Source: Vreelandella nanhaiensis (lineage in GTDB: Bacteria; Pseudomonadota; Gammaproteobacteria; Pseudomonadales; Halomonadaceae). Taken from it: a DNA stretch of 64,000 nt. A program made the translations under genes and the position numbers. A model generated the notes under the pieces. That model made no database searches. It had not been told where the DNA came from and worked only from the letters and a program-made list of their open reading frames with translations. The stretch's first letter is position 1; every line of letters begins with the position of its first letter. This document shows positions 23,305 through 38,640 of the stretch, one piece after another. Location of the stretch: assembly GCF_003990185.1 (NCBI RefSeq), contig NZ_RZHF01000028.1, forward strand, positions 134 through 64,133, written 5' to 3'.

Positions 23305-23321
23305 GAAGCAGCTTAAGCGGG

Positions 23322-23350
23322 TTGGAGTGTTATCTGGAACACGCTATACT
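23322..23350 (+). promoter_or_regulatory. Promoter of tRNA-Arg
   Basis: TTGGAG (-35) and TATACT (-10) are separated by exactly 17 bases. The -10 lies 22 bases before the tRNA 5' end, a good fit to a sigma-70 promoter driving the tRNA. Confidence 0.65.
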
Positions 23351-23372
23351 ATGTGCCCCTTCTGTAAGCAAA

Positions 23373-23449
23373 GTCCCTGTAGCTCAGTAGGATAGAGCAG
23401 CCGCCTCCTAAGCGGCAGGTCGCAGGTTCGACTCCTGCCAGGGACGCCA
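23373..23449 (+). tRNA. tRNA-Arg (anticodon CCT)
   Basis: A 77-base cloverleaf. The acceptor stem GTCCCTG pairs with CAGGGAC; the anticodon arm is GCCGC-CTCCTAA-GCGGC with CCT at 23407-23409; the T arm contains GGTTCGACTCC; the CCA end is encoded. It reads AGG codons. Its 3' 20 bases are the attachment site of the element to its right; insertion keeps the tRNA whole. Confidence 0.97.
23430..23449 (+). repeat. attL: tRNA 3' end, left copy of the 20-bp direct repeat
   Basis: GACTCCTGCCAGGGACGCCA is present here and again, identically, at 36798-36817. The flanking base differs on each side, so the repeat is exactly 20 bp. This is the normal result of tyrosine-recombinase integration into a tRNA 3' end. 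Confidence 0.92.
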
Positions 23450-23563
23450 ACGGGCATTCTTCACAAGTCCTGAGAAAGCCAAAAATAGAGTGTAATACTC
23501 TGAAATACTAAGATTTTTAGCCCTCCTTGTTCCTCAGCGTTCCTTTCAAATCCAGCTTCCAAG

Positions 23564-23583
23564 TGGTATACAGAATGGTATAT
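23564..23583 (+). repeat. Left arm-type repeat pair (TGGTATAC / TGGTATAT)
   Basis: TGGTATAC and TGGTATAT start 12 bases apart, and an inverted ATATACCA lies at 23605-23612 just before the integrase start. The same pair with the same 12-base period occurs near attR. Likely arm-type binding sites for integrase or its directionality factor. Confidence 0.5.
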
Positions 23584-23614
23584 ACCTCCATTCGGAAATA
23601 CTCGATATACCATC

Positions 23615-24808
23615 ATGGCGCTAACCGTTCGACAAATAAACGCAACCAAGCCCGGCACGAAAATTGTCACCCTTTCAGATGGCCTGGGATTAGAACTTAG
23701 GATCTGGCCCGATGGCCGCCGTGGCTGGCGTCTGCGCTACACACGCCCCAACGGCAAACGCAACATGACCAGCCTTGGTAAGTACCCTGATATAAGCCTT
23801 GCTGAAGCCCGAGAGAAGCGCACCGATATAAAGCGCTTGCTTGCTCAGGGAATCGACCCAGTAGAGCAGAAGCAGGACGATAAACGTAAGCAGCAATACG
23901 CCTCACAGAATACGTTCAAGGTGTTGGCCATGGAGTGGCACGCTTCCATGGTGCCGCGTTGGAAAGAAACGTCTAAGCGGGCTAACGACAGTAAGCGCGT
24001 GCTTGAGATGTATGTCTTTCCTAAGGTGGGAGAGCGCGCCATTGAAACCATCGTGCCGCTTGAATGGCTCGAAATCCTGCGCAGCCTGGAAGACGCTGGC
24101 AAATTCGAGCAGAGACGCCGCCTTCATGCTTTTTGCCGCGACATTTACCGCTTTGCCATCATAACGGGCCGCGCTCGTTACAACCCCCTTACCGACCTGA
24201 ATACGGCGCTCAAGCCCTACAAGCGGGGAAGCTTTCACCATATCCCCCAAGACGAGCTACCCGAGCTTGTACGCGATATTGAGGCATACGATAAAAGCCC
24301 CATTGTGCGCATTGGCCTCAAGCTTCTACTGCTAACCGCAGTGCGCCCCGGTGAACTGCGTATGGCCGAGTGGAAAGAGTTCGACCTACAAGCCGCCGTT
24401 TGGAAGATCCCCGCCGAGCGCATGAAGATGGGCAGGGCGCACCAAGTGCCACTGCCTACCCAGGCCGTTGACGAGCTGCGCTACCTGCACAAGCTGACAG
24501 GTACGTTCAAATTGCTTTTCCCAGGCCGGAACAACCCACGTAAGCCGCTATCTGATGCGGCGTTTGGCATGGCACTCAAGCGCATAGGATACGAAGGGCG
24601 ACACGTGCCCCACGGTACTCGCCATGTAGTGGCCACCGGGCTAAAAGAGCTTGGCTACCCAAGGGAATGGATTGAGCTACAGCTATCGCACAAGCTGCCA
24701 GGCATTGAAGGTGTTTACACCCATGCCCAGCACATGGCCCCGGATCAGCGCCCTGCGATGATGCAGTTTTGGGCGAACTACCTAGATAACATTAGCGCTG
24801 AGGTTTAA
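23615..24808 (+). CDS. int: P4-type tyrosine integrase
   Basis: A 397-residue site-specific recombinase of the P4 integrase family. The N-terminal arm-binding domain (about 1-90) starts MALTVRQINATKPG and has LGKYPDISLAEAREKR; a core-binding domain follows (about 98-185). The catalytic domain (about 210-385) has Arg244 (AVRPGE), His333/Arg336 (HGTRH), His359 (LSHKLPG) and Tyr368 (VYTHA), all present. It lies 166 bases from the tRNA it uses as attachment site. Its stop codon is immediately followed by the ATG of the next gene, so the two are co-transcribed. Confidence 0.95.
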   Translation: MALTVRQINATKPGTKIVTLSDGLGLELRIWPDGRRGWRLRYTRPNGKRNMTSLGKYPDISLAEAREKRTDIKRLLAQGIDPVEQKQDDKRKQQYASQNTFKVLAMEWHASMVPRWKETSKRANDSKRVLEMYVFPKVGERAIETIVPLEWLEILRSLEDAGKFEQRRRLHAFCRDIYRFAIITGRARYNPLTDLNTALKPYKRGSFHHIPQDELPELVRDIEAYDKSPIVRIGLKLLLLTAVRPGELRMAEWKEFDLQAAVWKIPAERMKMGRAHQVPLPTQAVDELRYLHKLTGTFKLLFPGRNNPRKPLSDAAFGMALKRIGYEGRHVPHGTRHVVATGLKELGYPREWIELQLSHKLPGIEGVYTHAQHMAPDQRPAMMQFWANYLDNISAEV

Positions 24809-25615
24809 ATGCGACTCAAGCTACCTATTAATTGCCCTAATTGCGGATCGAAAACCCGTACTAGATCGAGCCGGAAAATGGCAGAGGGGTATCATGTTTT
24901 ATATCAAGAATGCACTAACGAGAAGTGTGGCAATAAGTTTAAAGCTGACGAGGTATTCAGTGACACGACAATCGATGCGGTGGCGGAAAATTTCGGTTTA
25001 ATGGGCTTAAACCCTGATGCATGTGCGTTGATGATCATCGATCAGCAGCAAGCGGATATGTACTATCCCGTTTTTAGAAAGCGCAATAACGAGCGCGCAG
25101 AGTACAACATGTTTCGGCTGTTGAGTGCATGGCGTGAGAACTCGCTGCCCATCATCCATGTTCGTCATCTCTCAGGTGATCCAGACTCTCCCTATTCCCC
25201 CGGCCATCCTGGTGTGCGTTTTAAACTTGGTTTAGAACCTCTCGCTAACGAGAAGATTTTCGATAAAAGCATCACGGATGCCTTTTTACGCTCCAACATC
25301 GAGGATTGGCTGCTTAAGCGATCCATTCGCCAACTCGTGGTGGTGGGATCGAGCAGTGAAGGTGCAGTAGAGGCGACGGTAAGAAGCGCCTCTAACTTAG
25401 GGTTCACCGTATGGGTTCCTGATGACGCTTGCTACACCTTCGAGAAATTCAGTTACGACGCCGTGGATATTCTTCCCGAAACTGTCCATACCCTTGCCAT
25501 GACGAACTTGCACCAAGGTAACTCCACGGTAGTGGATACTACGTTGGTGCTTCACGCGATCGAGCACGCCACGTCTGCCAAAAGTGGTAAAGGGAAAGGC
25601 CAGCGCCACCACTGA
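24809..25615 (+). CDS. Ogr/Delta-like zinc finger fused to an isochorismatase-fold pseudoenzyme
   Basis: A 268-residue two-domain protein. Residues 5-48 form an Ogr/Delta zinc finger with Cys9, Cys12, Cys35 and Cys40 in the CxxC-x22-CxxxxC spacing of P2 Ogr and P4 Delta, which activate phage late promoters. Residues 70-245 match the isochorismatase/cysteine hydrolase fold: ALMIIDQQQADMY gives Asp78, KIFDKSITDAF gives Lys153, and VVVGSSSEGAVEATVRSA aligns with the usual GxxTxxCVxxTxRxA motif, but the nucleophile Cys is Ala186. It is therefore probably not a normal hydrolase and may sense or bind a ligand. The stop/start junction with integrase is direct, and GAGG overlaps the integrase end. 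I do not know of this fusion being described. Confidence 0.8.
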   Translation: MRLKLPINCPNCGSKTRTRSSRKMAEGYHVLYQECTNEKCGNKFKADEVFSDTTIDAVAENFGLMGLNPDACALMIIDQQQADMYYPVFRKRNNERAEYNMFRLLSAWRENSLPIIHVRHLSGDPDSPYSPGHPGVRFKLGLEPLANEKIFDKSITDAFLRSNIEDWLLKRSIRQLVVVGSSSEGAVEATVRSASNLGFTVWVPDDACYTFEKFSYDAVDILPETVHTLAMTNLHQGNSTVVDTTLVLHAIEHATSAKSGKGKGQRHH

Positions 25616-25743
25616 GAGATGGTCAGAACGGCTGCGTGTTGTAAGATTCGCCATTTCTACAACAGAGAAAAATCGAGTCATTTTATTTCATAAGCTATTG
25701 AATTTTAGTAATTAAAAGTATTTAACCATGGGTTTTTTATTTG

Positions 25744-25780
25744 GGCGCTTCACTACACATGGGTGGTGAAGCGCCTTTTT
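25744..25780 (+). terminator. Terminator of the int operon
   Basis: A GGCGCTTCAC / GTGAAGCGCC stem with a 12-base loop is followed by TTTTTG. It lies 128 bases after the stop of the zinc-finger fusion gene. The remaining 310 bases to alpA show no gene and should hold the alpA promoter. Confidence 0.8.
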
Positions 25781-26096
25781 GTTGTATGTCCATACAGTGT
25801 TTACAGCAGGTGTTTCTGGCCGTCCTGCCTGTTCCTCGTCAAGCTGTTGGTGTCTTGAACGCAACGCTTGTCACGCCATCTATCAACGCGAGGAACTCAC
25901 CACATGACACACCTTAGAACCTCCTTTCGACTCTCAGGGCTCCCCTTGTGATGACAATCGAAGCACACGCAGCGGATAGGGCGTTGTGCGGGAAGATTGG
26001 CACAACGGCCACCGATGGCGTGCCCCACTGACAACCGTCAAGCTTCATAGGGCCAGTAGGGTACATACCCGGAAGACACCGCGAGGACACGAAATA

Positions 26097-26402
26097 ATGC
26101 CTGAACTCACCACCCACACACCGCCTTTCAAAACGGTGAACAAGATCCAGCTCGGCAACCGACTGTTACGCCGTAAAGAGGTGGAGCAGAAAACCGGCAA
26201 AAGCCGCTCGGCCATTTATGACGGCATCCGCCAGGGCACCTTCCCGGCCCCGGTACCGATTGGCGGCAAAAGCGTTGCTTGGCTTGAGGAGGAGGTGGAT
26301 AGCTGGATCGCCCACTGCCTCGAGGAGCGCAAACGCCAGACCCTGGAAAATCGCCCCGCACCGCTACGCATGACCGCCCAACCGCAGGAGCAACGCGCAT
26401 GA
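26097..26402 (+). CDS. alpA: AlpA family transcriptional regulator
   Basis: A 101-residue small DNA-binding protein with the AlpA winged helix (about 25-80): NRLLRRKEVEQKTGKSRSAIYDGIRQGTFPAPVPIGGKSVAWLEEEVDSW. AlpA proteins control integrase or excision in P4-like islands and cryptic prophages. The start follows GAGGACACG; an open frame extends upstream but lacks family similarity. It overlaps the next gene by four bases (ATGA). Confidence 0.9.
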   Translation: MPELTTHTPPFKTVNKIQLGNRLLRRKEVEQKTGKSRSAIYDGIRQGTFPAPVPIGGKSVAWLEEEVDSWIAHCLEERKRQTLENRPAPLRMTAQPQEQRA

Positions 26403-26626
26403 GCCAATTTGAGATCACTATCAACGGCACCACGCTAAACCTAACCACTGAGGATATGGCCGCGATTGAAACTGCCATGGCGGACGCAATGCGCACCCCG
26501 CATCAAAAAACGTTCCGTAAGGGCACTACGGGTAACGTCTACGCCAAGCTATTGAACGGCCCAGGTAGTAACGGCCAGCACTTCAGTCATGGCTTGCCTG
26601 CCGGTTACATCGAAACCGACTGCTAG
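26399..26626 (+). CDS. Small hypothetical protein, coupled to alpA
   Basis: A 75-residue protein, MSQFEITINGTTLNLTTEDM at its start, not recognised. It begins inside the alpA stop (ATGA overlap), which supports real translation. The composition is mixed, with no membrane segment and no Cys cluster. The position, directly after AlpA and before the structured leader, is where satellites carry small regulators. Confidence 0.6.
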   Translation: MSQFEITINGTTLNLTTEDMAAIETAMADAMRTPHQKTFRKGTTGNVYAKLLNGPGSNGQHFSHGLPAGYIETDC

Positions 26627-26843
26627 ACCCCTAAACCCCACCAAACAGCTTTAACGCTGCTGGGCCAACGCTCAGCGGGTATGGGGAAGCTTTGTCTGTA
26701 AATCGCAAAAAGGCCCCAGCGCGGGGAGCACTGAAGCCTAAGCGAAGAAACATCAAAGGGAAGACATGAAGCATATCAAATTAAGCGTAATTTGCTGCCT
26801 CGAAGGCTTGCGAGGAACACTGAGGAATGATTATCATGGCTGT

Positions 26844-26927
26844 GCTGTAGCAAAATCTACAGCCGGGCGTGAGAACCCGAGTTCACAAAGGCGCTACAGC
26901 GCCCCTACCATTGCAGGCGCTTTTTTT
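26844..26927 (+). promoter_or_regulatory. Structured leader with alternative hairpins and intrinsic terminator (P4 immunity-like)
   Basis: GCTGTAG (26844-26850) can pair with CTACAGC at 26857-26863 or with a second CTACAGC at 26894-26900. AGCGCC (26898-26903) can pair with the upstream GGCGCT (26890-26895) or with a downstream GGCGCT (26916-26921) that is followed by seven T residues. The last pairing is a terminator; the earlier ones would block it. P4 controls its replication operon through a small CI RNA and competing pairings in the same position, before the replication genes. The similarity is of layout, not of sequence. The wider gap 26627-27077 shows no convincing gene. Confidence 0.5.
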
Positions 26928-27077
26928 GTACCTGTAATGCGTCCTTATGGTGGCTGTGCGTGGGCACGCTTCGGCGTGGCCGGTTTCCTTTGTGGCCGGT
27001 TTCTCACCCCGCGTACAGTCGCCTCCAATCGCGTGAGAACGGTTGTTGGTGACTCCATACACGAAGGAGTCTTACCC

Positions 27078-27317
27078 ATGGCCAATCAAAGCCAAGGTGC
27101 GTATACGCACACCCAAATTTCCCCCTCGCAAATTGCCACTGCCTTAATCGGCACCAAACTTATTGCCTATCGCGTAAACCGTCGCCCCGAACAGCTTTCT
27201 TACCTGCTGGGACTGGTGCGCATGGCTACCGCACTTGGCCACATTTCTTCCGAAGACCATTCCCAATTAATGATCGACCTGGAACGCCTTGTTGTTGAGG
27301 AGGTGCCCCATGTCTAA
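27078..27317 (+). CDS. Small satellite protein upstream of primase
   Basis: A 79-residue protein starting MANQSQGAYTHTQISPSQIA after a strong AAGGAGT. It is not recognised and shows no membrane segment. The same frame is open for another 104 codons upstream through the structured leader, but that part looks like RNA structure rather than protein; a longer Ash/Icd-like product cannot be excluded. It overlaps the next gene by eight bases, so these small genes are read together with the primase. Confidence 0.65.
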   Translation: MANQSQGAYTHTQISPSQIATALIGTKLIAYRVNRRPEQLSYLLGLVRMATALGHISSEDHSQLMIDLERLVVEEVPHV

Positions 27318-27621
27318 TCCAACGCCACGCCTTGAAGATGCGCTTTGCCTTACCGAGGCCGAGTGCCTTTTGATCGACCCCCGCGCCAGAGCAGAGGATC
27401 TATTCGACCAGTGCGAAACTCGCCTGGAAGCGGCAAGCAATCTGATGATGACGCTAAGCACACTAGATGCCCCTGGGGCCTGCGCTGATGCGCGTGACCT
27501 AGCTAATGTGGCGTTACCTGGTCGACTATTGCTTGCTGATTCACTCGATTTGCTCATGGCTGCCCGGCGAGTCGCTAAAGGCCAAGCAGCGCCTGCCAGG
27601 AAGGGGGGCGAGCATGGCTAA
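27310..27621 (+). CDS. Hypothetical protein in the replication operon
   Basis: A 103-residue, mostly helical, acidic protein (MSNPTPRLEDALCLTEAECLL at the start). The start has GAGGAGG seven bases upstream. It overlaps the preceding gene by eight bases and the primase gene by eight bases, so it belongs to the same translation-coupled operon. No family recognised. Confidence 0.65.
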   Translation: MSNPTPRLEDALCLTEAECLLIDPRARAEDLFDQCETRLEAASNLMMTLSTLDAPGACADARDLANVALPGRLLLADSLDLLMAARRVAKGQAAPARKGGEHG

Positions 27622-28606
27622 ATCGACCGTTCAAAAGATCCAACAAGTAGCCATAGCCGCATTAAACGACGTTGAGACGTTACTAGCCGAATGGCTGCCT
27701 GATGGCATCCGCCAGGGTAGCGAGTGGGTAGCGCGCAACACGGCCCGAGACGACCAGGGTAAAGGCTCGTTTGGCGTATCACTGGCCAGCGGCAAGTGGA
27801 ACGACTTTGCTGACTCAGATGCCCATGGTGGCGACTTAGTATCGCTGCTTAGCTACTTACAGGGCTGCCGACAGGTCGAGGCGGCCATGCAAATTGACCA
27901 GCGCTTAGGGCTGGGTATTTTTCAACGCAACGGTGAGGCGCAAGCCTCACCCCCCATTACCTCTACGTCTACCAAAAGCCAGCTACGCCAACAGGCAGAA
28001 GCCGAGCGCATAGCCTCCTTGCAGAAAGCGGCCCAACTCGCCAAACGGCTTTGGCAAAGCGCGCAACCGGCATGCCCTGGCCACGCCTACTTAGTGGACA
28101 AAGGCATAAGCCCTTACCGACTTCGGCAAACGCCGCAAGGCCAGTTAATGGTGCCGCTTTATGCACATGGGGAGCTGGTCAACGTTCAGTTGATCGACGC
28201 CCAAGGCAATAAGCGCTTTTTGAAAGGTGGGCAAGTGCAGGGCGCCTATGCGCCGCTTGGCCGGGTAATGCCCGGAAAGACGCTTTATGTGTGTGAGGGC
28301 TGGGCTACCGGGGCGACTATTTACGCCCATACCCGCGAGCCGGTGGCGTGTGCCATGCATGCTGGCAATCTGGAGCCAGTGGCCCGTGCCTTGTGCGAGC
28401 GGTATGGCCACCTTGAAATGGTAATAGCCGGTGATGATGACCGCGCTACCCCTGGCAACCCTGGGCGCACAGCCGCGAACGCTGCTGCATTAGCGGTGGG
28501 CGCGTTAGTGCTTTTCCCCGCTTGGCCAAAGGAAGCCCCCCATAGATTGACCGATTTTAACGATCTGGCGCGCTGGTATCGCCAGCAAGGGGGCCATGAT
28601 GAGTGA
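27614..28606 (+). CDS. TOPRIM-domain primase-like protein (P4 alpha-type)
   Basis: A 330-residue protein with a C-terminal TOPRIM domain (about 220-325): LYVCEGWATGATIYA supplies the metal Glu near 228, and VIAGDDDRATPGNPGR the Asp group near 274-276. The N-terminal part contains SFGVSLASGKWNDFADSDAHGGDLVSL, typical of phage and plasmid primase-like proteins. It would make primers for satellite replication together with the DUF927 helicase next to it; P4 alpha carries both functions in one chain, here they are split. The start follows AAGGGGGGCG. It overlaps both neighbours. Confidence 0.85.
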   Translation: MAKSTVQKIQQVAIAALNDVETLLAEWLPDGIRQGSEWVARNTARDDQGKGSFGVSLASGKWNDFADSDAHGGDLVSLLSYLQGCRQVEAAMQIDQRLGLGIFQRNGEAQASPPITSTSTKSQLRQQAEAERIASLQKAAQLAKRLWQSAQPACPGHAYLVDKGISPYRLRQTPQGQLMVPLYAHGELVNVQLIDAQGNKRFLKGGQVQGAYAPLGRVMPGKTLYVCEGWATGATIYAHTREPVACAMHAGNLEPVARALCERYGHLEMVIAGDDDRATPGNPGRTAANAAALAVGALVLFPAWPKEAPHRLTDFNDLARWYRQQGGHDE

Positions 28607-30389
28607 TAAGAAACGTGAGCAGCAAAGCCATCTTGCGTTAGTTGGCCAACCGACTGCGCCGGAGATCGACACCTTGGAGCGGCCAAGCTATGCCGTGTAC
28701 GAAGGCCAGACCCTGGTAGATGGAAAGCTATTCAAAGCAGGCACATGGTTTCACGGCATCAAGCAAGGGCAGGGCGATGATATCGGCCAGCCGTTTGATT
28801 TATGGGTATGTGCGCCGCTGCATGTGGACGCTGAGACGGTTAATAGCGATGACGGTAGCGTAGGCCGCCTACTTCACTTCAAGCACCGGGGCCGCGTGGT
28901 CGAGTACGTCATGCCCATGGAAGCGCTGGCCGGTAAAGGTGAGGAGGTATTGAAAGCCCTTTTCCGGCAGGGCTTAAAGGTGGAGTACCACCAGCGCCGT
29001 TATGTGCCTGCGTATATCGCCAGCCACCACGATCTAAAGCGCGTGCTGGCCACCACCACCAAACCCGGCTGGCACGACGCCAGCGGCGCGTTTGTACTGC
29101 CTAGCAAGATCCTGGGCGGCCAGGATGTGCGCTTTCAGGATAGCGGCAAGGGGGCGCACCTGTTTTCCGAACGCGGCACGTTGGAAAGCTGGCAAAGCGA
29201 GCTGGCGTATTACTGCCAGGGGAACCCGGTACTGATTCTATCCGTGTGCTGCGCACTGGCCGGGCCGCTGCTTTCAAAAGTAGGGGTAAACGGTGGCGGC
29301 GTGCATTTGGTAGGCGATTCCTCAAGTGGTAAGTCACTGGCTCAGGCTATCGCTGCCTCAGTGTGGGGCGACCCCAGCCGTTTCGCCGCCTCGTGGGATA
29401 TGTCGCGGGGCGGTATCGAGATCGAGGCATCGTCACGTAATGACACGGTGCTGATTCTGGACGAGATCAAGCGCGCCGACCCCAAACGGGTACAAGAAAT
29501 GGCCTACGCCATCGCTAACGGCACCGGCAAAGGCACGATGACCCGCGAGCGGGAAGGGCGGCCCAAGCTCTACTGGCGCGTATTGGCGCTATCCAGCGGC
29601 GAGCGCTCGCTTTCTGAACATGCGGCCATATCCGGTAACGCCGCCCACGCCGGGGCAGAGCTGCGCATGGTGGACGTGAACGCGGGAACCCGCACTTATC
29701 GCGCCTTCGATGACGTACACGGCATGGACGGGGCCACCTTTCACCGGAAGCTGACCACAGCTACCGCGCACCACTTCGGTGTGGTGGGGCCTGCGTTTGT
29801 CGAACGGTTGATTAAGGAGACTGACCCCGACGTTTTCTATCAGCGCTTTGCTGAAGTGCGGGCAGGGTTCAACTCCGATGGCCCCCAGGCGGGCAGGGTG
29901 GCGGATCGCTTCGCCATCATTGGCCTAGCGGGCGAACTGGCGACCACCTACGGCATTTTGCCGTGGGAAGAAGGTACCGCAGCTAACGCCAGTCGTCAGC
30001 TATTCCGCGAGTGGGTCGCCAGCGTAGGCGATGGAAACGCAGAAGATCGTCAAATACTTAGCGCGCTATCAGACTTTATCGCTATGCACGGTGATAGCCG
30101 CTTTTCTAATATCGCTGCTGAGCTGCCCAATGCTGGTATCAAGCACCGCGCCGGTTACTACGAGATCGAGGACAGAAAGCGCTTGTATCTGTTCAACCGT
30201 GCCTCACTAACGGAAGCGGCAGCGGGCTATGGCAGAGACCGCGTGATTCGTACCCTGGAAACCTACAACGTGTTGGCCAAAACCGACAGTGGCCGCCGCC
30301 AGAAAAACTACCGCCTGCCAGGAGGAGGGAGCACGCGCTTCTTCGTCATTGATCCCGACAAGCTTGACGGCGAGCGAGGAGGCGAATGA
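28596..30389 (+). CDS. DUF927 superfamily-3-like replicative helicase
   Basis: A 597-residue ATPase. The DUF927 region spans about 130-420, with Walker A GDSSSGKS at 240-247 and Walker B TVLILDEI ending at Asp289-Glu290. A likely arginine-finger area lies around TMTREREGRPKLYWRV. The C-terminal 150 residues contain a winged-helix-like segment (HRAGYYEIEDRKRLYLF), possibly the origin-binding part as in P4 alpha. It overlaps the primase gene by 11 bases. Immediately downstream is a cluster of GGCAAC/GTTGCC repeats that would suit an origin bound by this protein. Confidence 0.87.
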   Translation: MMSDKKREQQSHLALVGQPTAPEIDTLERPSYAVYEGQTLVDGKLFKAGTWFHGIKQGQGDDIGQPFDLWVCAPLHVDAETVNSDDGSVGRLLHFKHRGRVVEYVMPMEALAGKGEEVLKALFRQGLKVEYHQRRYVPAYIASHHDLKRVLATTTKPGWHDASGAFVLPSKILGGQDVRFQDSGKGAHLFSERGTLESWQSELAYYCQGNPVLILSVCCALAGPLLSKVGVNGGGVHLVGDSSSGKSLAQAIAASVWGDPSRFAASWDMSRGGIEIEASSRNDTVLILDEIKRADPKRVQEMAYAIANGTGKGTMTREREGRPKLYWRVLALSSGERSLSEHAAISGNAAHAGAELRMVDVNAGTRTYRAFDDVHGMDGATFHRKLTTATAHHFGVVGPAFVERLIKETDPDVFYQRFAEVRAGFNSDGPQAGRVADRFAIIGLAGELATTYGILPWEEGTAANASRQLFREWVASVGDGNAEDRQILSALSDFIAMHGDSRFSNIAAELPNAGIKHRAGYYEIEDRKRLYLFNRASLTEAAAGYGRDRVIRTLETYNVLAKTDSGRRQKNYRLPGGGSTRFFVIDPDKLDGERGGE

Positions 30390-30424
30390 TGAAGAAGCAA
30401 TTTACACGTGAACCTAGTTTTTAT

Positions 30425-30631
30425 GGCAACACTGGCTACAACGGCAACGCCCAGCAATCACGGGGGGTTGAGGTGTTGCCTATTAATAAGAGAGGTGGCA
30501 ACAAAGGCAACACATATCTTTATACCTATATATCCCCTGTGCCTACCTGTTGCCGTTTTCAAAAAGCGGCTACAGGTTGCCAAAAAAAATACCAATTAAA
30601 TCAATGGTGTTGCCGGTGTTGCCACGTTGCC
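30425..30631. other. Candidate replication origin with iteron-like repeats
   Basis: Ten copies of the hexamer GGCAAC or its complement GTTGCC lie in 207 bases: starts at 30425, 30443, 30475, 30497, 30506, 30549, 30576, 30609, 30618 and 30626. Left copies are mostly GGCAAC and right copies all GTTGCC, facing across an AT-rich centre (30511-30540, ATATCTTTATACC). The position directly after the primase and helicase genes is where P4-like elements keep origin or replication-control repeats. A weak open frame (30386-30811) crosses this region but looks like a by-product of the repeats. Confidence 0.55.
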
Positions 30632-30818
30632 CGCATTTTTGAAAACAGTCAGGGGAATATTAGGGGTAGGAAGCTTGTTGATGGGCGAACTTTTTCCCAT
30701 CACTTGAGACCGATGCCCCTTCCTGGCAGGCGGATTTACACCTTACTGACCACTTCCCGTTGGTGGGGCGCTGGCTCCACCGTTCCACCCGCGCACACAA
30801 GCCCAACGTGAGGCCCAC

Positions 30819-31724
30819 ATGACCGACCAGACACCGGCCACCCCTAAAGCCACTGAGCAGGAGCGACACACCATGCAGATAGACAATATGCGTTACTTCA
30901 AAGCCCCCGAGGTTGTCGATTTGGGAGTATCAGAAGCGAAGCTGGAGGCACAGATCGAGCGGGAGCGTGCCGCCTACATGGTTCGGCGCTCGAAGCTCGA
31001 GAGTGCTTCAAGCAGACTGAACAAGTTGAGGAAGACCCTAACTGCATTGAACGAGCAATCCGAGGCGTCGGATAAAGCATGGCGGCTAGATTTCGTGAAG
31101 GGATTTGGAGAGCAGAGTAAGTCGGTACGGGAGCAGCTCAAGCAGAAAGGCAAATGGTCGGTCGAAGCCGAGCAGACTCAGGAAATGATTGCGATGCTCG
31201 AGCCGCAACTGGAATGGCTCCAGATGCATACCCACGCGGCAAGAAAAGTCTTACAGAAGACGGTGACGCTGTGGTGTGAGCTGTCATCACACAATGCGCT
31301 GATAAACAGCTTAAAAGAGCTGTCTACCACCGACGGAATTGCGGCACTGAGTGCCGAGGTGCCCACACTGTTCAAGCGTATCAAAGAGGATACCTACAAC
31401 GATGACCTTTTCATGGTTGGCCTGGGTTTCGATGTATCGTTTAAACGAGGAAGTGCTATCGCTTCCCAGCTCAGTCGAGAAGATACGATCCAGGTAAACC
31501 ACGAGATCCGTGATCGCCAATATTCAGCGCTAGGTGAACTCGTGGCGAGTATTTTGCCAAAGGTTAGAAAGGTGGTAACACCGACTGCGCAGCTACCCGA
31601 GCGTCTAAGCTGTGAGGCCGATGCCAACGAATACCCGTCCACTTTCGGCTTCTCTCGTCGTTTGAAGGAGCTTGAAGCGCTAATGGAGTACGTGCCCAAC
31701 CTGGAAGATCTCGACGCCGCATAG
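30819..31724 (+). CDS. Psu-like (capsid decoration/polarity suppression family) coiled-coil protein
   Basis: A 301-residue, strongly helical protein with long charged coiled-coil segments (about 30-170). The C-terminal part NDDLFMVGLGFDVSF resembles the IGFRPDVAS region of P4 Psu, and the upstream helices (QLEWLQMHTHAARKVLQKTV) fit Psu's helical core; the match is by eye and moderate. Psu decorates the small P4 capsid and inhibits Rho. In P4, psu is the last gene before cos, the same place as here. Start choices are ATG at 30819 (GTGAGG upstream) or ATG at 30873 (AGGAG upstream). A decayed paralogue lies outside the island near 38.4 kb. Confidence 0.5.
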   Translation: MTDQTPATPKATEQERHTMQIDNMRYFKAPEVVDLGVSEAKLEAQIERERAAYMVRRSKLESASSRLNKLRKTLTALNEQSEASDKAWRLDFVKGFGEQSKSVREQLKQKGKWSVEAEQTQEMIAMLEPQLEWLQMHTHAARKVLQKTVTLWCELSSHNALINSLKELSTTDGIAALSAEVPTLFKRIKEDTYNDDLFMVGLGFDVSFKRGSAIASQLSREDTIQVNHEIRDRQYSALGELVASILPKVRKVVTPTAQLPERLSCEADANEYPSTFGFSRRLKELEALMEYVPNLEDLDAA

Positions 31725-31748
31725 GCAAAAGATGCTGGTATGTGATCT

Positions 31749-31772
31749 ACGCCCCGCCCTTGTGCGGGGCGT
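31749..31772. terminator. GC-rich hairpin after the Psu-like gene
   Basis: ACGCCCCGC and GCGGGGCGT form a nine-base stem on a short loop, 25 bases after the stop codon. The following run is only TTCGT, so it is a weak or Rho-assisted terminator. Confidence 0.55.
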
Positions 31773-31890
31773 TCGTATGTTAGGGCTTAGCGAGAAAAGG
31801 GCAGCCACTGAACGCGTCCACAGGCCGTTTAGATAGGATGTTGCCAACCTCATACCCGCGTACCGGCCGCGCCCCACGGCGCGCTATCGA

Positions 31891-31909
31891 CACCCCGCCC
31901 CGCCCGCGC
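31891..31909 (-). other. Candidate cos-like packaging site
   Basis: On the minus strand GCGCGGGCGGGGCGGGGTG resembles the GGCGxGGCGGGG core of P2/P4-type cohesive ends. It lies 167 bases after the Psu-like gene, where P4 has cosR. The match is short and GC-biased, so chance is possible. No gene is visible in the 720 bases from 31725 to 32444. Confidence 0.3.
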
Positions 31910-31928
31910 GCTAAATGTAGTAGTTTTT

Positions 31929-32026
31929 ATGCACCCCTGAAAACGCCGCCAAACCGCGCTACTGCTGGGCTGGCTGGTGGAAAATGGGTGCATGAAAATT
32001 ATGCGAATTCATGCGGGGTTATGCAG
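31929..32026. repeat. ATGC repeats with 10-base phasing and an inverted ATGCACCC arm
   Basis: ATGCACCC (31929-31936) is matched by GGGTGCAT (31986-31993), and ATGC starts again at 32001, 32011 and 32021, exactly one helical turn apart. This could be a protein-binding array, for example for packaging, beside the cos-like site. Function unknown. Confidence 0.4.
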
Positions 32027-32444
32027 TTTTAACGAATAGAGCAGGTAGCAACAAACTAAAGCTGTGATATCGGCTGGCCGAAAGCTAAAAAGGACATTCC
32101 TGACAAGACCCTGTGGAGCTCAAGCCTTCCGGCGTAGGATGGTCTAAAGTCGCAGCTAAACGGGTTGCATAGACGGAAAGGAATGGGCAATACTGCTAAA
32201 AATAATTAATTAGTGGAGGCATGGGCTCATGAGGATTAATTTTATTGCGACCATAATTTGTAAATTATCAGCAACCACTAATGGTGCCGTTGAGCGAGCT
32301 CATTGTTTGATTTCAGAAGCCTGTATTTCTTACGTATCAGGAACCTCTATACCCGTACTTTACGGCAGCCATCGACCCAAGGTGGCCCTTCCGGCGAAAG
32401 CAGCATGCTAATTCAGCCATGTTATGCAGCGGGCACGATAATCT

Positions 32445-33305
32445 ATGTTAAGTTGCCATGATAGATCGAGCATGAAGTTAAAGAAATTGATATTAATTCC
32501 GGAGGTGGCCCAGCTCTACTCTCACTTAGAAAGTGACTTTGAGAAGGAGATATATACTGCTGCACTCAGAAATTATTGCAGCATGGGAAACCCGATCAGA
32601 TTCAATAATTTTGCCTTCGTGATTCGAGAGCTTCTAACTAAAGTGGTCGATAGGCTGGCTACAACGGAAGATGTCAAAAAAGCCAAGTGGTACTCAAAAG
32701 AAAGTGAGGATTATGAAGTTACGCGAAAGCAACAATTGAAATTCTGTGCTCAAGGCTATTTTGTCGATTCGGTTCTTCCTGACTGGATCGAAGAGGAAGT
32801 CGATGAGTTTATAAAAGAATATGTAAAGCTTTACAGAAAGCTCAATCAATATACCCATATAAGCGAGAAATATAAAGGGTTGTCACCACAAAAAGCTTTT
32901 TCATTTTTAAAAGATCTTGTAGTTACTTTTTCGGCAATACTATCCACTCTCTCCGATATAAAGGGCCATATTACAGAAGAAATAGAGAGTGAAGTTCATG
33001 ATGTTGTTTTCGATAAGCTCATGTTTGAATCGCATGAGGCCCTTATTGAATTATCTGGTCAGACAATCGTGGAAGGTATAAATATAGAAGGGTATTGGCT
33101 TTCAAGGGTAGAGCCAGATTCCATCATGTTTGAAGGCGAAGGCTTCGTAGAGTGTGAATTAAATTACGGGTCTAAACATGACGGTATGTCAATGAGTCAT
33201 GATGTGCCTTTTTCGTTTTGCCTGGTTGCTAGTATAGAAAAACCAACTGAGCTAGATTTTTACGAGCAGGGTATGTATTTAGATAACAGTAGTTTCTATG
33301 AGTAG
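32445..33305 (+). CDS. Cassette 1 protein, possibly pPIWI-associating-nuclease-like
   Basis: A 286-residue AT-rich gene unlike its neighbours in codon use. The C-terminal part, with VEPDSIMFEGEGFVECELNYG and SHDVPFSFCLVAS, recalls the predicted pPIWI-associating nuclease family, but this is a memory-based, weak match. The N-terminal helical part (FVIRELLTKVVDRLA) is not recognised. An alternative ATG lies nine codons downstream (MKLKKLILIPEVAQL). The stop codon is followed within three bases by an attC site, and GTTATGC 24 bases upstream marks a likely cassette boundary, so this is an integron-type gene cassette. Confidence 0.65.
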   Translation: MLSCHDRSSMKLKKLILIPEVAQLYSHLESDFEKEIYTAALRNYCSMGNPIRFNNFAFVIRELLTKVVDRLATTEDVKKAKWYSKESEDYEVTRKQQLKFCAQGYFVDSVLPDWIEEEVDEFIKEYVKLYRKLNQYTHISEKYKGLSPQKAFSFLKDLVVTFSAILSTLSDIKGHITEEIESEVHDVVFDKLMFESHEALIELSGQTIVEGINIEGYWLSRVEPDSIMFEGEGFVECELNYGSKHDGMSMSHDVPFSFCLVASIEKPTELDFYEQGMYLDNSSFYE

Positions 33306-33307
33306 CA

Positions 33308-33368
33308 ACTTAACAAGCGCGTCAATTAGGACGCTCGCAAGCTTGCGCCTATTACACGAGCGTTAAGT
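33308..33368 (+). repeat. attC recombination site of cassette 1
   Basis: The outer boxes ACTTAAC and GTTAAGT are perfect complements and fit the RYYYAAC/GTTRRRY consensus of integron attC sites. The 61-base site has a central palindrome CGCAAGCTTGCG flanked by TTAGG/CCTA. It starts just after the stop codon, as attC sites do. Confidence 0.8.
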
Positions 33369-33388
33369 CATAAACCAAGGAAATCAGA

Positions 33389-34054
33389 GTGAACCAGAAA
33401 ATCTCCGAGCGATTCACAAACTTGATTGGCGAGATCGATGCTATAGACTCCTCCAAAACTAGGTCCTCTGGAGATTTTGGTGACGGCTGGAAAATTGATA
33501 GTGATGCTTTTCTTGCTTGGCGGGTGAAGGCTAAAAATATAATCCTCCAAGTATGCGGTGAAAAGTCCCAGCATTTTATTGAATTCACTCAATCTGAGAA
33601 GGTTGCTGGCTTAGGGGACGGCTATCATAGTGCCCTAAAACGAACGCGAGCCGTTTTCAGTGCAGCGAAAGATGATTTTGAAGGAGGGTATTTAACTTCT
33701 ATAAAATCTTTAGTTCAAGCAGAAGTCTTCGATAGCGAGCTAGAACAAGCAGAAGAGCTTCTTGCGAGTGGATATCACATAGCAGCTGCGGTTATCGCTG
33801 GCGTTGTACTCGAGACCGGCCTAAGAGAGCTGTGCGACAGAAATACTATTCCACACTCAAAGCTAGATAAAATGAATGCTGACCTTGCAAAAAAAGGTGC
33901 ATACAACAAGCTTCAGCAAAAAAGAGTTACAGCGCTTGCTGATATTAGAAACAGTGCCGCTCATGGAAAGCCTGATGAATTCACCGTTGAAGATGTACGG
34001 GCAATGATAAAAGAAGTGGGACAATTTTTAGCCGTAAATTTGAGCGCTGAGTAG
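33389..34054 (+). CDS. Cassette 2 protein, HEPN-like C-terminus
   Basis: A 221-residue protein. The C-terminal helical domain (about 115-215) contains ADIRNSAAHG, with Arg187 and His192 giving the R-x4-H motif of HEPN ribonucleases and their DUF4145-like relatives. The N-terminal half is not recognised. The start is GTG with AAGGAAA upstream. It is flanked by attC sites on both sides, is AT-rich and lies on the same strand as the other cassettes. HEPN domains often act in toxin-antitoxin or anti-phage systems, but many DUF4145 proteins have no known activity. Confidence 0.68.
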   Translation: MNQKISERFTNLIGEIDAIDSSKTRSSGDFGDGWKIDSDAFLAWRVKAKNIILQVCGEKSQHFIEFTQSEKVAGLGDGYHSALKRTRAVFSAAKDDFEGGYLTSIKSLVQAEVFDSELEQAEELLASGYHIAAAVIAGVVLETGLRELCDRNTIPHSKLDKMNADLAKKGAYNKLQQKRVTALADIRNSAAHGKPDEFTVEDVRAMIKEVGQFLAVNLSAE

Positions 34055-34056
34055 CA

Positions 34057-34128
34057 ACTTAACAATCGCAGCCACTGGGACAAAATTTCCGCTGCGCTGC
34101 AATTTTCCCCGTGCTGCGGGCGTTATGT
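34057..34128 (+). repeat. attC recombination site of cassette 2
   Basis: Outer boxes are ACTTAAC and GTTATGT (one mismatch in complement). Inner boxes CGCAGC and GCTGCG are perfect complements, and ACAAAATT pairs with AATTTT further in. The 72-base site starts at the cassette stop. The 18 bases leading into it, TGAGTAGCAACTTAACAA, are identical to those entering the first attC. Confidence 0.82.
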
Positions 34129-34151
34129 GTAGGGGATAGAGAGTCGAATCC

Positions 34152-34646
34152 ATGAAGGAATATGTACCAATTATTGTTTCCGTAATTGCAGGAATGTTTG
34201 CTCTATGGTCTGCGGTATTCACATGGAGACTAAAGCAAGCCTCTGATAAGCGAATGCGCGAGCTAAGTAAAGAAGAGGCTGCTCACAACGAATTGAAGGC
34301 CCTTTACGTAAAAATTCACGAGACATTCGAAGATCTTATAAAAGAATCACGAAACTACAAAAAGAGCGATTTGAATTCACGGTTTAGCACACTGACGGCT
34401 GAAGTAGGATTGTTAGCTTCAACAGAGGTAGTCGGTAGATATCATCGGGTGGCTGATTTATACCAAGAATGGGCTCCGTTGTATTTAAAAGCGTATCCAG
34501 CACCAAAGAATGGTGTCTTGCTAATTCAATCACCTGATCCAACTCTAAAATACAAAGAGCCAGAAAAAGAAGCTTATGACCGTTTCTATGAAGAATACAG
34601 CAACTTGATCAAGAGTTTACGTGGTGAAATCGGAGTCAACACATAA
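34152..34646 (+). CDS. Cassette 3 membrane-anchored hypothetical protein
   Basis: A 164-residue protein with one N-terminal membrane helix (about 5-26, VPIIVSVIAGMFALWSAVF), then a basic, helical cytoplasmic part. Not recognised. It lies between two attC sites on the plus strand and its stop codon overlaps the first box of the third attC, a typical compact gene cassette. Single-helix anchored cytoplasmic proteins of unknown function are common in integron arrays. Confidence 0.65.
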   Translation: MKEYVPIIVSVIAGMFALWSAVFTWRLKQASDKRMRELSKEEAAHNELKALYVKIHETFEDLIKESRNYKKSDLNSRFSTLTAEVGLLASTEVVGRYHRVADLYQEWAPLYLKAYPAPKNGVLLIQSPDPTLKYKEPEKEAYDRFYEEYSNLIKSLRGEIGVNT

Positions 34647-34725
34647 CAAGTTGTTGTAGTTCGTTCCGGCCTGCGGCCTCCACCGGGCGCCCCTGTCGGG
34701 ACTTCGCTAAACAAAAGCGTTATAT
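34641..34725 (+). repeat. attC recombination site of cassette 3
   Basis: Outer boxes are ACATAAC and GTTATAT, with one mismatch in complement; TTGTT near the left pairs with AACAA near the right. The 85-base site has a GC-rich centre (CGGCCTGCGGCC). It is the weakest of the three to the consensus but sits in the correct place and orientation. The following 260 bases to the next gene are AT-rich with no visible gene. Confidence 0.68.
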
Positions 34726-34989
34726 CAGAGACGACTAAAAGGCAGCTTCTGGAAGAAACAGGAATGCCCTTGTTTAGGCTCCTATCTACCTTAGCGGCCA
34801 TTCAGGGAAATGCAACAGACACACGTATCTTGTATGTGCAGATCAGTTTAACCTAATTATAAATAATTCTTAATTAGAACATAGGATTTAGTATTTGTCA
34901 GGCTGTATGTTTCTGTACAAATGTACCTGCACGTTCATCCAGTCATAAGTTAAGAAGTCTAATTCCTGCTATATGTCACAAGGTAAATT

Positions 34990-35838
34990 ATGAGCAGTAT
35001 TAAAGAATATTACCTAGAAAATGAAGAAAGCCGCTATATTCAATTGGCGGATATCCTGGGTGTTTCGTGGCGAGAATTACAAGATTTGGAGTATGAAATT
35101 ACCGCGAGAGTATCCACGGATGGTAATGTATATAGTTACATTATTGAATTTTCTAAAGACAATGATCCGTCTGTTTTGAGAAATGTAGAAGGCTTAAGCG
35201 AAAATTGGACTGTTGAAATAGCGCCTTGGGTACTTGAGAGAAGCGAAGAAGATGAGTACGAACTCGGTGCAATCGCGAGGAACGAAAACTATAGGTTAAG
35301 CTTTATAAGTGAATTGCAGGATCTCGATGGGTTATTGGAATTAGAAATAGCAGATCAAAACTTGCATAGAGTTCTTCTTCGTCAGGTTTTTATAAGTATT
35401 ATTGGTGCTGTTGAGACCTATTTGTCAGATGCATTCATTAATGAAGTGATTTCAAATCCACTATATCTAGAACGTTTTGTACAGTCACACCCAGAATTTA
35501 AGAAACAAAAAATAAGCCTTAGTGAGATTTTTTACGAATCATTAAAAATTAAAGAAAAAGCAAAAAATATCATGCTAGGTACGATTTACCACAAGTTGCC
35601 AGTGGTAAAGCAGATGTATCAAGATACATTTGGAATAAAATTTCCTCATATAGGTGATATGCAAAAATATATTATACAGCGTCATGACCTTGTTCATAGA
35701 AACGGGAAAACAGCGGATGGCGATCAAGTTATTATCGATAGAAAAACCATAGATAATTTGAAGAGTTCAGCGTTTGAAATGATAGATAAAATTGATATAG
35801 AGATAAAAGAACTAAGCGATTATGGCTTGCCATTCTAG
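34990..35838 (+). CDS. HEPN-like cargo protein
   Basis: A 282-residue AT-rich gene. The C-terminal domain (about 120-280) ends in IIQRHDLVHRNGKTADG, with Arg231 and His236 in R-x4-H spacing; the RHDxVHRNG pattern is typical of RiboL-PSP-HEPN-like domains. The N-terminal 115 residues are acidic and not recognised. No attC follows it, so it may be ordinary satellite cargo or a cassette that lost its site. RNase activity is only suggested by the motif. Confidence 0.7.
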   Translation: MSSIKEYYLENEESRYIQLADILGVSWRELQDLEYEITARVSTDGNVYSYIIEFSKDNDPSVLRNVEGLSENWTVEIAPWVLERSEEDEYELGAIARNENYRLSFISELQDLDGLLELEIADQNLHRVLLRQVFISIIGAVETYLSDAFINEVISNPLYLERFVQSHPEFKKQKISLSEIFYESLKIKEKAKNIMLGTIYHKLPVVKQMYQDTFGIKFPHIGDMQKYIIQRHDLVHRNGKTADGDQVIIDRKTIDNLKSSAFEMIDKIDIEIKELSDYGLPF

Positions 35839-35985
35839 TAGCTCTTCGTGCCTTGGAAATAATAAGCTAATGCATATTCATCTAGCTAGTTTGCTTATTT
35901 TGTCGTGGTGTCGCTTTGCTTTCTCTACCATAAAAAGCACTCTAAACTGCAGACCCGGCGATTAGGCCGTTGTGGATAAATAAAT

Positions 35986-36546
35986 ATGGATTGGAAAACA
36001 TTTTTCTCACAGATAATTGACTCACTTGCGTGGCCAGCGGTAACAGTTTTCGTGGTTGTTCTATTACGAGACAAAGTCACCGATCTGCTTCTGAGACTGA
36101 AAAAGTTGAAGCATAAAGAAACAGAGATTGAGTTTGCTGAAGGCATTTCTGAACTCATACAAGAGCGTGAAGCACAAGGCATTGAAGGTGAGGAGCTGGC
36201 ACGAAATAATGAGTATCAAAACCAATTTGATTTTTTGTCTCGACTGGCTGATATTTCACCAAGGTCAGCCGTCCTCGAATCTTTTCGTATCGTTGAATCG
36301 GCTGCAGCTAAAAAGGCTGCGAAGTTATACCCTGATCTAGAAAACCGGTATGCGAGAAGCCCCCCTCATCTTCAAAAAATGCTCAAAGGAGAGGTTTTGA
36401 GCAAGAACGAGTTCCGTCAGTTCGACCAGCTCCGCAAGCTGCGGAATGAAGCTGCACACGATGAGGAGTTTGATGTTAGAGGTATGCCAATAGAAGCGTA
36501 TATTGATATCGCACTATCTATGGCCTCTAGGTTAGAGTCTGAATAG
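35986..36546 (+). CDS. Membrane-anchored DUF4145/HEPN-like cargo protein
   Basis: A 186-residue protein. A membrane helix near 12-28 (SLAWPAVTVFVVVLL) is followed by a charged linker with coiled-coil character (about 35-75) and a helical domain ending QLRKLRNEAAHDEEF, Arg153 and His158 in R-x4-H spacing. It is the last gene before attR. Anchored HEPN/DUF4145 proteins are frequent in defence-rich islands. No partner toxin or antitoxin was recognised next to it. Confidence 0.7.
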   Translation: MDWKTFFSQIIDSLAWPAVTVFVVVLLRDKVTDLLLRLKKLKHKETEIEFAEGISELIQEREAQGIEGEELARNNEYQNQFDFLSRLADISPRSAVLESFRIVESAAAKKAAKLYPDLENRYARSPPHLQKMLKGEVLSKNEFRQFDQLRKLRNEAAHDEEFDVRGMPIEAYIDIALSMASRLESE

Positions 36547-36720
36547 CCACAAAAGGGTGGTCAATAAGACGCCAACAGCGTAGAGATACATGGCGGGGGG
36601 GCAGATATAATGTCAGAGATGCCTAAAATATAGCTCCTAACCCTAACAGATCACACGTGCCTCATACGAAATTACAATTGATTGATGTTATCTACGCTAT
36701 ACGGGGGGCAGGTGGGGTAC

Positions 36721-36740
36721 TGGTATACGTAGTGGTATAT
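36721..36740 (+). repeat. Right arm-type repeat pair (TGGTATAC / TGGTATAT)
   Basis: The same two octamers seen near attL, in the same orientation and with the same 12-base period, lie 58 bases before attR. This symmetry supports integrase arm sites. Confidence 0.5.
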
Positions 36741-36797
36741 TGTATTTTTTGTCTTTATATTTAGTTATTTAAAATCATGCTATTACATGGTTTTATA

Positions 36798-36817
36798 GAC
36801 TCCTGCCAGGGACGCCA
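36798..36817 (+). repeat. attR: right copy of the 20-bp att repeat
   Basis: Identical to the last 20 bases of tRNA-Arg including CCA. There is no tRNA body to its left, so it is the repeat left at the far end of the element. Confidence 0.92.
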
Positions 36818-36989
36818 TACCACTTTTTAAAGTCCCCCACGTTATACCAAAAACCAGACAACCACGCGGGTTTTACCCTGTCGGCCTACCTATAATCACC
36901 CCACGTGAATCCCTCTCAAACCATGCTTTTATGTATACGAGAGTGTATGCCGACAGATAATAACTTCCTTAGCATACATAGAGGCGGGT

Positions 36990-38277: not shown

Positions 38278-38336
38278 TCTATGCACTATGTTGAGCTGCA
38301 AATAGGGTGTAGAACTTGCTGTCACCTGGATTTCTA

Positions 38337-38640
38337 AAGAAGTGTGGCAAGCTGAATCGTCTGAAAAAAACATTTAGTGCTTTAGAGCAGCAAGAGAAAA
38401 CCGCTGATATTGCATGGCGACAGGCCTTTGTTAAAGGCTTTGGAAAACAAAGCAAGCTCATGCGGGACCAGCTCAAACAGAATACTTAGTGGAAACTGGA
38501 GGCTGAACAGACGAGGGAAACGGTCATGCTATTAGGACCGCAAGTAGAATGGCTAAAAATGCATACCTACGTAGCTCGTAGAACCTTTATGACTAGCTTG
38601 CGCTCCATGAACGACTTGCCGTTATCGGTCAGCGCTGACT
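38337..38640 (+). pseudogene. Decayed paralogue of the satellite Psu-like gene
   Basis: The plus frame reads KLNRLKKTFSALEQQEKTAD, then AWRQAFVKGFGKQSKLMRDQ, then LKQNT, a TAG, and WKLEAEQTRETVMLLGPQ with VEWLKMHTYVARR. This matches the island protein at KLRKTLTAL, WRLDFVKGFGEQSKSVREQL, EAEQTQEMIAMLEPQLEWL and QMHTHAARK. The in-frame TAG at about 38488 and missing ends make it a pseudogene. It lies 1.5 kb outside attR, so it came from a different, older element. Confidence 0.8.

Follow-up and report, generated by a model that had tools for sequence, protein, structure and literature searches.

The window analyzed here is a 64,000-nt stretch of Vreelandella nanhaiensis DNA (contig NZ_RZHF01000028.1) that contains a 13.4-kb element (23373–36817), bounded by a tRNA-Arg(CCT) gene and a 20-bp copy of the 3′ end of this tRNA. 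Judged by its sequence, the element is a P4-like phage satellite that uses this tRNA gene as its integration site, and its accessory zone carries three integron gene cassettes. The array represents a cluster of attC sites lacking integron-integrases (CALIN) that is preceded by an orphan attI and lies in a P4-like satellite, and it is one of a genus-wide family. In our assessment it is very probably a platform without integrase, composed of the orphan attI and three cassettes, in which cassettes were exchanged by an integron integrase (IntI) acting in trans and are carried by the satellite. An initial annotation of this DNA had described integron cassettes within a satellite that is devoid of an integron integrase. 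Satellite hallmarks, both att repeats and three attC sites bear this description out. In the whole host genome (4.03 Mb in 29 contigs, completeness 100%) the best match to the integron integrase model TIGR02249 reached 78.8 bits at a cut-off of 265, and no protein anywhere exceeded this cut-off, as the annotation had claimed for intI; 14 of 14 control genomes likewise matched TIGR02249 below cut-off. With three attC sites (at least two are needed) and no integron integrase the array belongs to the CALINs.

attC sites and cassette boundaries

The sites were evaluated against integrase-bearing integrons of the order, which occur in 132 of 293 genomes at E ≤ 1e-60 and of which 20 stretches beside integrases were sampled. 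A two-arm profile was trained on 217 attC sites from integrase loci and adjoining stretches, excluding the window and all loci found via the window sites; these training sites were gathered by iterating the profile from 18 seeds and are not curated attC sites. For comparison with the profile scores in Table 1, the best non-attC site in the window reached 20.8 (both strands) and the top score in 60 order-2 Markov simulations (one strand) was 35.0. A covariance model that we built from 28 of the training sites reported only three matches in the 64-kb window on both strands (E ≤ 10), namely attC1, attC2 and attC3. The bit scores were 57.8, 35.6 and 21.7, the last being that of attC3, the weakest of the three. 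The whole-genome covariance search at E ≤ 1 yielded six sites, among which attC1 and attC2 were present and attC3 was absent. The initial annotation had placed attC sites at the ends of three consecutive plus-strand genes, the first two with ACTTAAC left boxes and exact or one-mismatch right boxes. The sites are indeed found at these places as the sole covariance matches in the window, the boxes agree (Table 1), and the covariance scan that it had proposed, run with our self-built model, returned all three sites. The folding it had proposed gave a divided result: in the bottom strands R″ and R′ were paired in all three attC sites with RNA parameters, but not in attC3 under DNA parameters.

The window sites have close relatives elsewhere. 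Among the 217 attC sites of integrase-bearing arrays, the nearest are 91% identical over 58 nt for attC1, 81% over 52 nt for attC2 and 92.5% over 80 nt for attC3. Sites resembling attC1 and attC2 (82–93% identity) are also present on plasmids of Photobacterium, Alteromonas, Pseudoalteromonas, Halomonas, Acinetobacter and Salinivibrio among the 20 of 21 records listed; for attC2 the identity is 82–91%, with 91% for a Halomonas plasmid. Six plasmid records were inspected: in five the site lies directly 3′ of an annotated same-strand gene, mostly hypothetical, and the sixth is unannotated at this position.

Each cassette consists of an ORF followed by an attC with paired R″/R′ and L″/L′ boxes, as defines an integron gene cassette. 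A cassette start that complements the R″ box of its own attC is the mark of insertion at G|TTRRRY. This complementarity is exact in all three cassettes (GTTAAGT/ACTTAAC, GTTAAGT/ACTTAAC and GTTATGT/ACATAAC). Could chance hairpins or terminators mimic such sites? A loose box-and-fold scan found 26 palindromes in the window, counting both strands, and owing to this lack of specificity it was replaced by the trained profile and the covariance model; moreover, the score of 35.0 from one of the 60 simulated sequences comes close below the 39.1 of attC1. However, three sites lie within 1.4 kb, each 3′ of a gene and matching the cassette starts, and they are homologous to attC sites of integrase-bearing arrays. 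Profile and covariance scores, homologues, cassette starts and junctions together refute mimicry, to which we assign a negligible probability. The three attC sites are to be regarded as genuine, and the cassettes as true integron gene cassettes.

An orphan attI and its relatives in the genus

The initial annotation had seen no attI. This was incorrect: directly before the first cassette lies an orphan attI, and the cassette junctions are of the canonical G|TT type (Table 1). The full orphan attI element measures ∼206 nt and bears two cores, A (TAATCTATG|TT) and B (TAATCACTG|TT), the window copy being of the A kind. The array has its own orphan attI, whose cores are predicted from sequence and junctions to be recognized by IntI; among the components of a complete integron, the attI is present at the sequence level and intI is missing. 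The match of the second attI-like sequence listed in Table 1 is weak, with a best BLAST E of 0.003 to the corresponding region in genome G294.

With window positions 32372–32457 as query, the orphan attI family was found at 43 places in 26 of 82 genus genomes (E ≤ 1e-6). Order-wide it occurs in 6 of 293 genomes, all within the taxonomic family of the window genome. An integron integrase was matched in 22 of the 82 genus genomes at E ≤ 1e-50, 19 of them exceeding the curated cut-off, and 18 of the 26 attI-bearing genomes have no match at this E-value. No contig has an orphan attI copy within 100 kb of such an IntI match; in G368 the two are on separate contigs. The B core is identical to the core beside IntI in 5 of 20 genus integrase loci, and the half flanking it is 74–82% identical beside IntI in 7 of these 20 loci. 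When 28 copies were compared with the full element, 16 stop exactly at the TT of the B core, 7 stop 0–8 nt past the TT of the A core and 5 elsewhere.

The sampled loci hold 29 copies, 28 of which could be assessed for downstream attC sites. Of the 28, 21 are followed by an attC on their own strand at a distance of up to 3.5 kb, none being found on the opposite strand; random positions gave 0 of 600, a weak control because its 12 loci hold no attC at the threshold used. The junction test comprised 32 rows, of which 23 were counted after leaving out 7 with no attC within 3.5 kb and 2 with no core call. In 18 of the 23 copies the heptamer after the core complements R″ of the first attC at all four variable positions. 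Altogether 78 of 92 positions agree (5000 shuffles: mean 45.8, maximum 62), compared with 50 of 92 when the R′ of each attC is used instead of the R″ complement. Perfect junctions are found at A cores (window and locus L118) as well as at B cores; loci L071 and L116 have one and the same cassette, and the junctions of these two are therefore not independent. Flank clustering started from 40 entries, three loci being in duplicate, and the resulting 37 distinct copies fall into 18 upstream contexts and 36 distinct downstream sequences within 700 nt, L071 and L116 being the only pair alike. Seven upstream contexts recur in at least two genomes, each time with different contents. The pattern indicates that orphan attI platforms in the genus have been used and that their contents turned over at a fixed attI.

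Further attC sites were seen in the window genome at L071 (9903–9974), L072 (9227–10295) and L073 (near 10000). On its contig C6 an attC lies behind an orphan attI, with a B core followed by a trypsin-like cassette gene; others are located on contigs C24 and C8.

Sister satellites and the source of the cassettes

The DUF927 gene of the satellite has strong matches in at least 11 genus genomes; satellite and repeat counts are lower bounds because at most three candidates were scored per genome. Three satellites, those of the window, G366 and G321, carry attC arrays in the accessory zone. Compared with the window, the G366 satellite has an integrase of 91% and a helicase of 92% identity, whereas in G321, an 86% complete genome, the integrase is 88% identical and helicase and primase are fragmented, perhaps frameshifted. 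At the same tRNA, four more islands (G294, G316, G318 and G367) carry attC sites and parts of the leader that precedes attI in the window. Their right ends show an att-like copy that is more or less decayed (15–21 of 23 bases), and tblastn between tRNA and array detected no satellite core genes save a 20-residue remnant in G367. The window, G366 and G318 have leader and attI in common and differ in their cassettes; the arrays of G294 and G316 are preceded by a B-like core that has diverged, and the heptamer there is that of the first attC.

By eye, a motif at ∼8533 of L100, in the satellite of G321, is like the Shewanella-type attI of PMC9892861, and the bases after it form the heptamer belonging to the first attC of that array; an ORF resembling a piece of a transposase adjoins it. 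Among 30 integrase-bearing loci of the order, none contained anything similar to this motif, and a control gave 2 in 223,104 bases.

The attC sites, the attI, the canonical junctions, a satellite with both att repeats, the differing contents at a fixed attI and the genus-wide family are evident at the sequence level; that an integrase in trans loads the satellite-borne attI appears to be the most likely explanation. Such an integron integrase would be encoded elsewhere, in the past or in another host, and would exchange cassettes at the satellite attI in trans. Loading would take place inside an integrase-bearing cell, and the satellite would then spread with its helper phage, delivering cassettes to cells that lack IntI and are unable to exchange them. 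Cassette loading may be one of several ways in which the satellite fills its accessory zone, probably with anti-phage genes. A wider version, which we put forward tentatively and think somewhat doubtful, holds that in this bacterial family the integron has become decoupled: stand-alone and often tandem attI (A plus B core) would have spread across chromosomes and satellites, a minority of integrase-bearing cells would load all of them in trans, and satellites would shuttle the cassettes between cells that have an integrase and cells that do not.

The array could alternatively be a relic, in which a unit of intI, attI and array entered the satellite and then lost intI in cis, leaving the orphan attI as decayed remnants. 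The similarity of the B half to attI regions beside IntI points in this direction, as it implies that the orphan attI and those attI have a common ancestor. On the other hand, the window genome has no IntI, none of the 43 attI places is near an IntI match, and in the five loci with a locatable core no A core was observed beside IntI. Furthermore, contents differ at apparently orthologous attI sites, so that the platforms seem to be kept in use without IntI in cis; we consider a relic quite improbable. It is unlikely, too, that leader, attI and cassettes moved jointly as a block by homologous recombination, the cassettes having been inserted elsewhere before entering the satellite. The leader is common to the four same-tRNA islands that are devoid of satellite core genes apart from the G367 remnant, and leader and right end would offer homology for such an exchange, but it is at the core that the sequences begin to differ, and the start of the cassette fits the attC of that cassette, although insertion outside the satellite is still compatible with these junctions.

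Several observations weigh against exchange in trans at a satellite-borne attI. Since there is no IntI in the genome, nothing known is able to act at the array at present. Eight of the 11 DUF927 satellites have no attC at a score of 33 in the stretches read, the G309 contig being short, and 7 of the 28 orphan attI copies have none within 3.5 kb. Five of the 23 junctions fit incompletely, three scoring zero at the variable positions; two of these three look mis-called due to indels, and all were kept in the count. A search of the 82 genomes for an empty platform, the attI core joined to the tail with at most 3 mismatches, gave one match, the core part of which fits poorly. No phage record matched the accessory zone (32420–36830), and on viral contigs neither cassette protein 1 nor the satellite helicase had a relative.

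Cargo, related systems and satellite backbone

The cassette genes may include anti-phage genes. Cassette 1 encodes a protein with pP_pnuc_1/2 matches that is assigned to Aga_Nuclease by PADLOC at 1.7e-57; PDB gave no match for it. The protein of cassette 2 has weak DUF4145/HEPN matches under the Pfam cut-off, and its ORF shows what we take to be an R-NSAA-H motif, spotted by eye. For cassette 3 there are weak matches only, with a one-membrane-segment effector model at 0.021. NCBIfam returned no match for the five accessory proteins. In other accessory zones a SIR2-like protein (G366), a protein kinase (G316) and a PIN-domain protein (G318) are encoded, and the zone of a sister satellite in G297 (L097, 8418–11562) contains Gabija, with GajA at 1e-233 and GajB at 1e-224. 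Behind chromosomal orphan attI we found SieB and FRG proteins; Pfam was null for 4 of 10 proteins scanned there and for 6 of 10 in those other accessory zones. The earlier notion of defence genes is plausible, though no more than that, in view of the Aga_Nuclease match, the weak matches of cassette 2 and the Gabija system. Homologous genes lacking attC-like ends had been named as an observation that would refute the cassettes, and for cassette 2 the outcome is mixed: among 49 relatives of its protein, the genes of four end in an attC, the closest (78% identity) being one of them, and 45 have none by this model.

CALINs, attC arrays without intI that are said to be mobilizable in trans by complete integrons (PMC11389934), resemble the window array in lacking intI; the latter differs by its recognizable attI of a dispersed family, its canonical junctions and its location in a phage satellite. 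The nearest case in this literature is the Shewanella prophage M16-3, a presumed cryptic prophage with a CALIN and its own attI, and also a complete integron (PMC9892861). Both combine an integrase-less array and an attI on a phage-derived element, whereas here the carrier is a satellite, the genome has no IntI and the attI has 43 related places in the genus. Sedentary chromosomal integrons serve as defence-gene stores (Darracq 2025, cited in PMC13064858) and share cassettes with likely defence functions; in contrast to them, the window array is short, has no integrase in cis and is not the only platform in its genome, one of these being on a satellite. Delta-attI cassettes, which have partial attI at their borders within mobile integrons and are usable by IntI1 (PMC12901181), likewise have attI-derived sequences in unusual positions, but the window attI is a stand-alone platform. 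That phages can carry integrons, that CALINs act as hitchers and that integrons store defence genes has been described before (PMC11389934, PMC9892861, PMC13064858); a search of open-access PMC papers, preprints excluded, showed in its listings and in passages no case of a phage satellite with integron cassettes or an attI.

In this finding the pool of integron cassettes meets helper-dependent phage satellites, both of them systems of gene capture. It provides a testable path along which single genes, probably including defence genes, would enter the accessory zone of a satellite cassette by cassette. It suggests that an attI may persist and remain in use without an encoded integrase. Such platforms would be overlooked by surveys based on IntI or attC clusters alone.

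P4-like satellites possess a tRNA-site integrase, AlpA, an Ogr/Delta finger, a C4 RNA, a primase/helicase and a variable accessory zone with defence genes; they also lack virion genes, encode capsid-size or packaging functions (sid, psu) and are mobilized by a P2-like helper. The window element has the same backbone set, with all hallmarks present (tRNA-borne att repeats, integrase, primase/helicase, AlpA, Ogr/Delta-type regulator and C4-type RNA), and a variable accessory zone; it differs in that this zone is partly loaded with integron cassettes in the present lineage. Nine satellite proteins compared with PHROGs gave no match to sid or psu, nor to virion genes.

Table 1. Features of the satellite and its cassette array (window positions)
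Feature	Position	Strand	Remarks
tRNA-Arg(CCT)	23373–23449	+	chromosomal integration site; last 20 bases (23430–23449) are the left att repeat
Tyrosine integrase of satellite, not IntI	23615–24808	+	Pfam and PHROG matches; 88–91% identity in G321 and G366 satellites
Ogr/Delta zinc finger and isochorismatase domain, one fused ORF	24809–25615	+	
AlpA-type excisionase/regulator	26094–26402	+	
isrK-like RNA (26844–26927) and C4 antisense RNA (26943–27029)	26844–27029	+	Rfam, above gathering score
Toprim primase	27614–28606	+	
DUF927 primase/helicase	28596–30389	+	92% identity in G366 satellite
Satellite backbone ORF, no assigned function	30819–31724	+	relatives in sister satellites
Non-coding leader directly 5′ of attI	31725–32371	+	partly common to satellites and tRNA-Arg islands
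Orphan attI, A core	32372–32447	+	recombination point G(32447)|TT; conserved copies, break points, first-cassette match 7/7
Cassette 1, starts TTAAGT	32448–33362	+	ORF 32472–33305, pP_pnuc_1/2, PADLOC Aga_Nuclease
attC1	33308–33368	+	ACTTAAC...GTTAAGT, complementarity 7/7; profile 39.1
Cassette 2, starts TTAAGT	33363–34122	+	ORF 33389–34054, DUF4145/HEPN-like
attC2	34057–34128	+	ACTTAAC...GTTATGT, complementarity 6/7; profile 50.1
Cassette 3, starts TTATGT	34123–34719	+	ORF 34152–34646, small protein
attC3	34641–34725	+	ACATAAC...GTTATAT, complementarity 6/7; profile 42.9
Tail common after last attC	34726–34752	+	11 places in genus loci, attC called exactly there in 6
Second, diverged attI-like sequence before gene 4, core ...TAATTCCTG|CT	34782–34968	+	alignment to G294 and G316 attI-like regions
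Two accessory genes without recognizable attC	34990–36546	+	RiboL-PSP HEPN-like (34990–35838); DUF4145 HEPN-like (35986–36546)
Right att repeat	36798–36817	+	identical to the final 20 bases of the tRNA; closes satellite

Some portion of window positions 22900–23620, around the tRNA, was matched in 79 of 82 genus genomes. The isrK match is barely over the Rfam gathering score (52.7 versus 50). The fused Ogr/Delta-isochorismatase ORF is matched over its whole length by the G321 satellite in two pieces (62%), and only in the finger portion by G366 and G322. Within the leader, positions 31863–32030 contain GC-rich and ATGCA-type repeats that recur at ∼70–93% in many genus genomes; as a guess, this stretch might be the replication origin of the satellite. 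Beyond the right att repeat, positions 38316–38600 by eye resemble part of the backbone ORF (30819–31724), which suggests an older satellite remnant.

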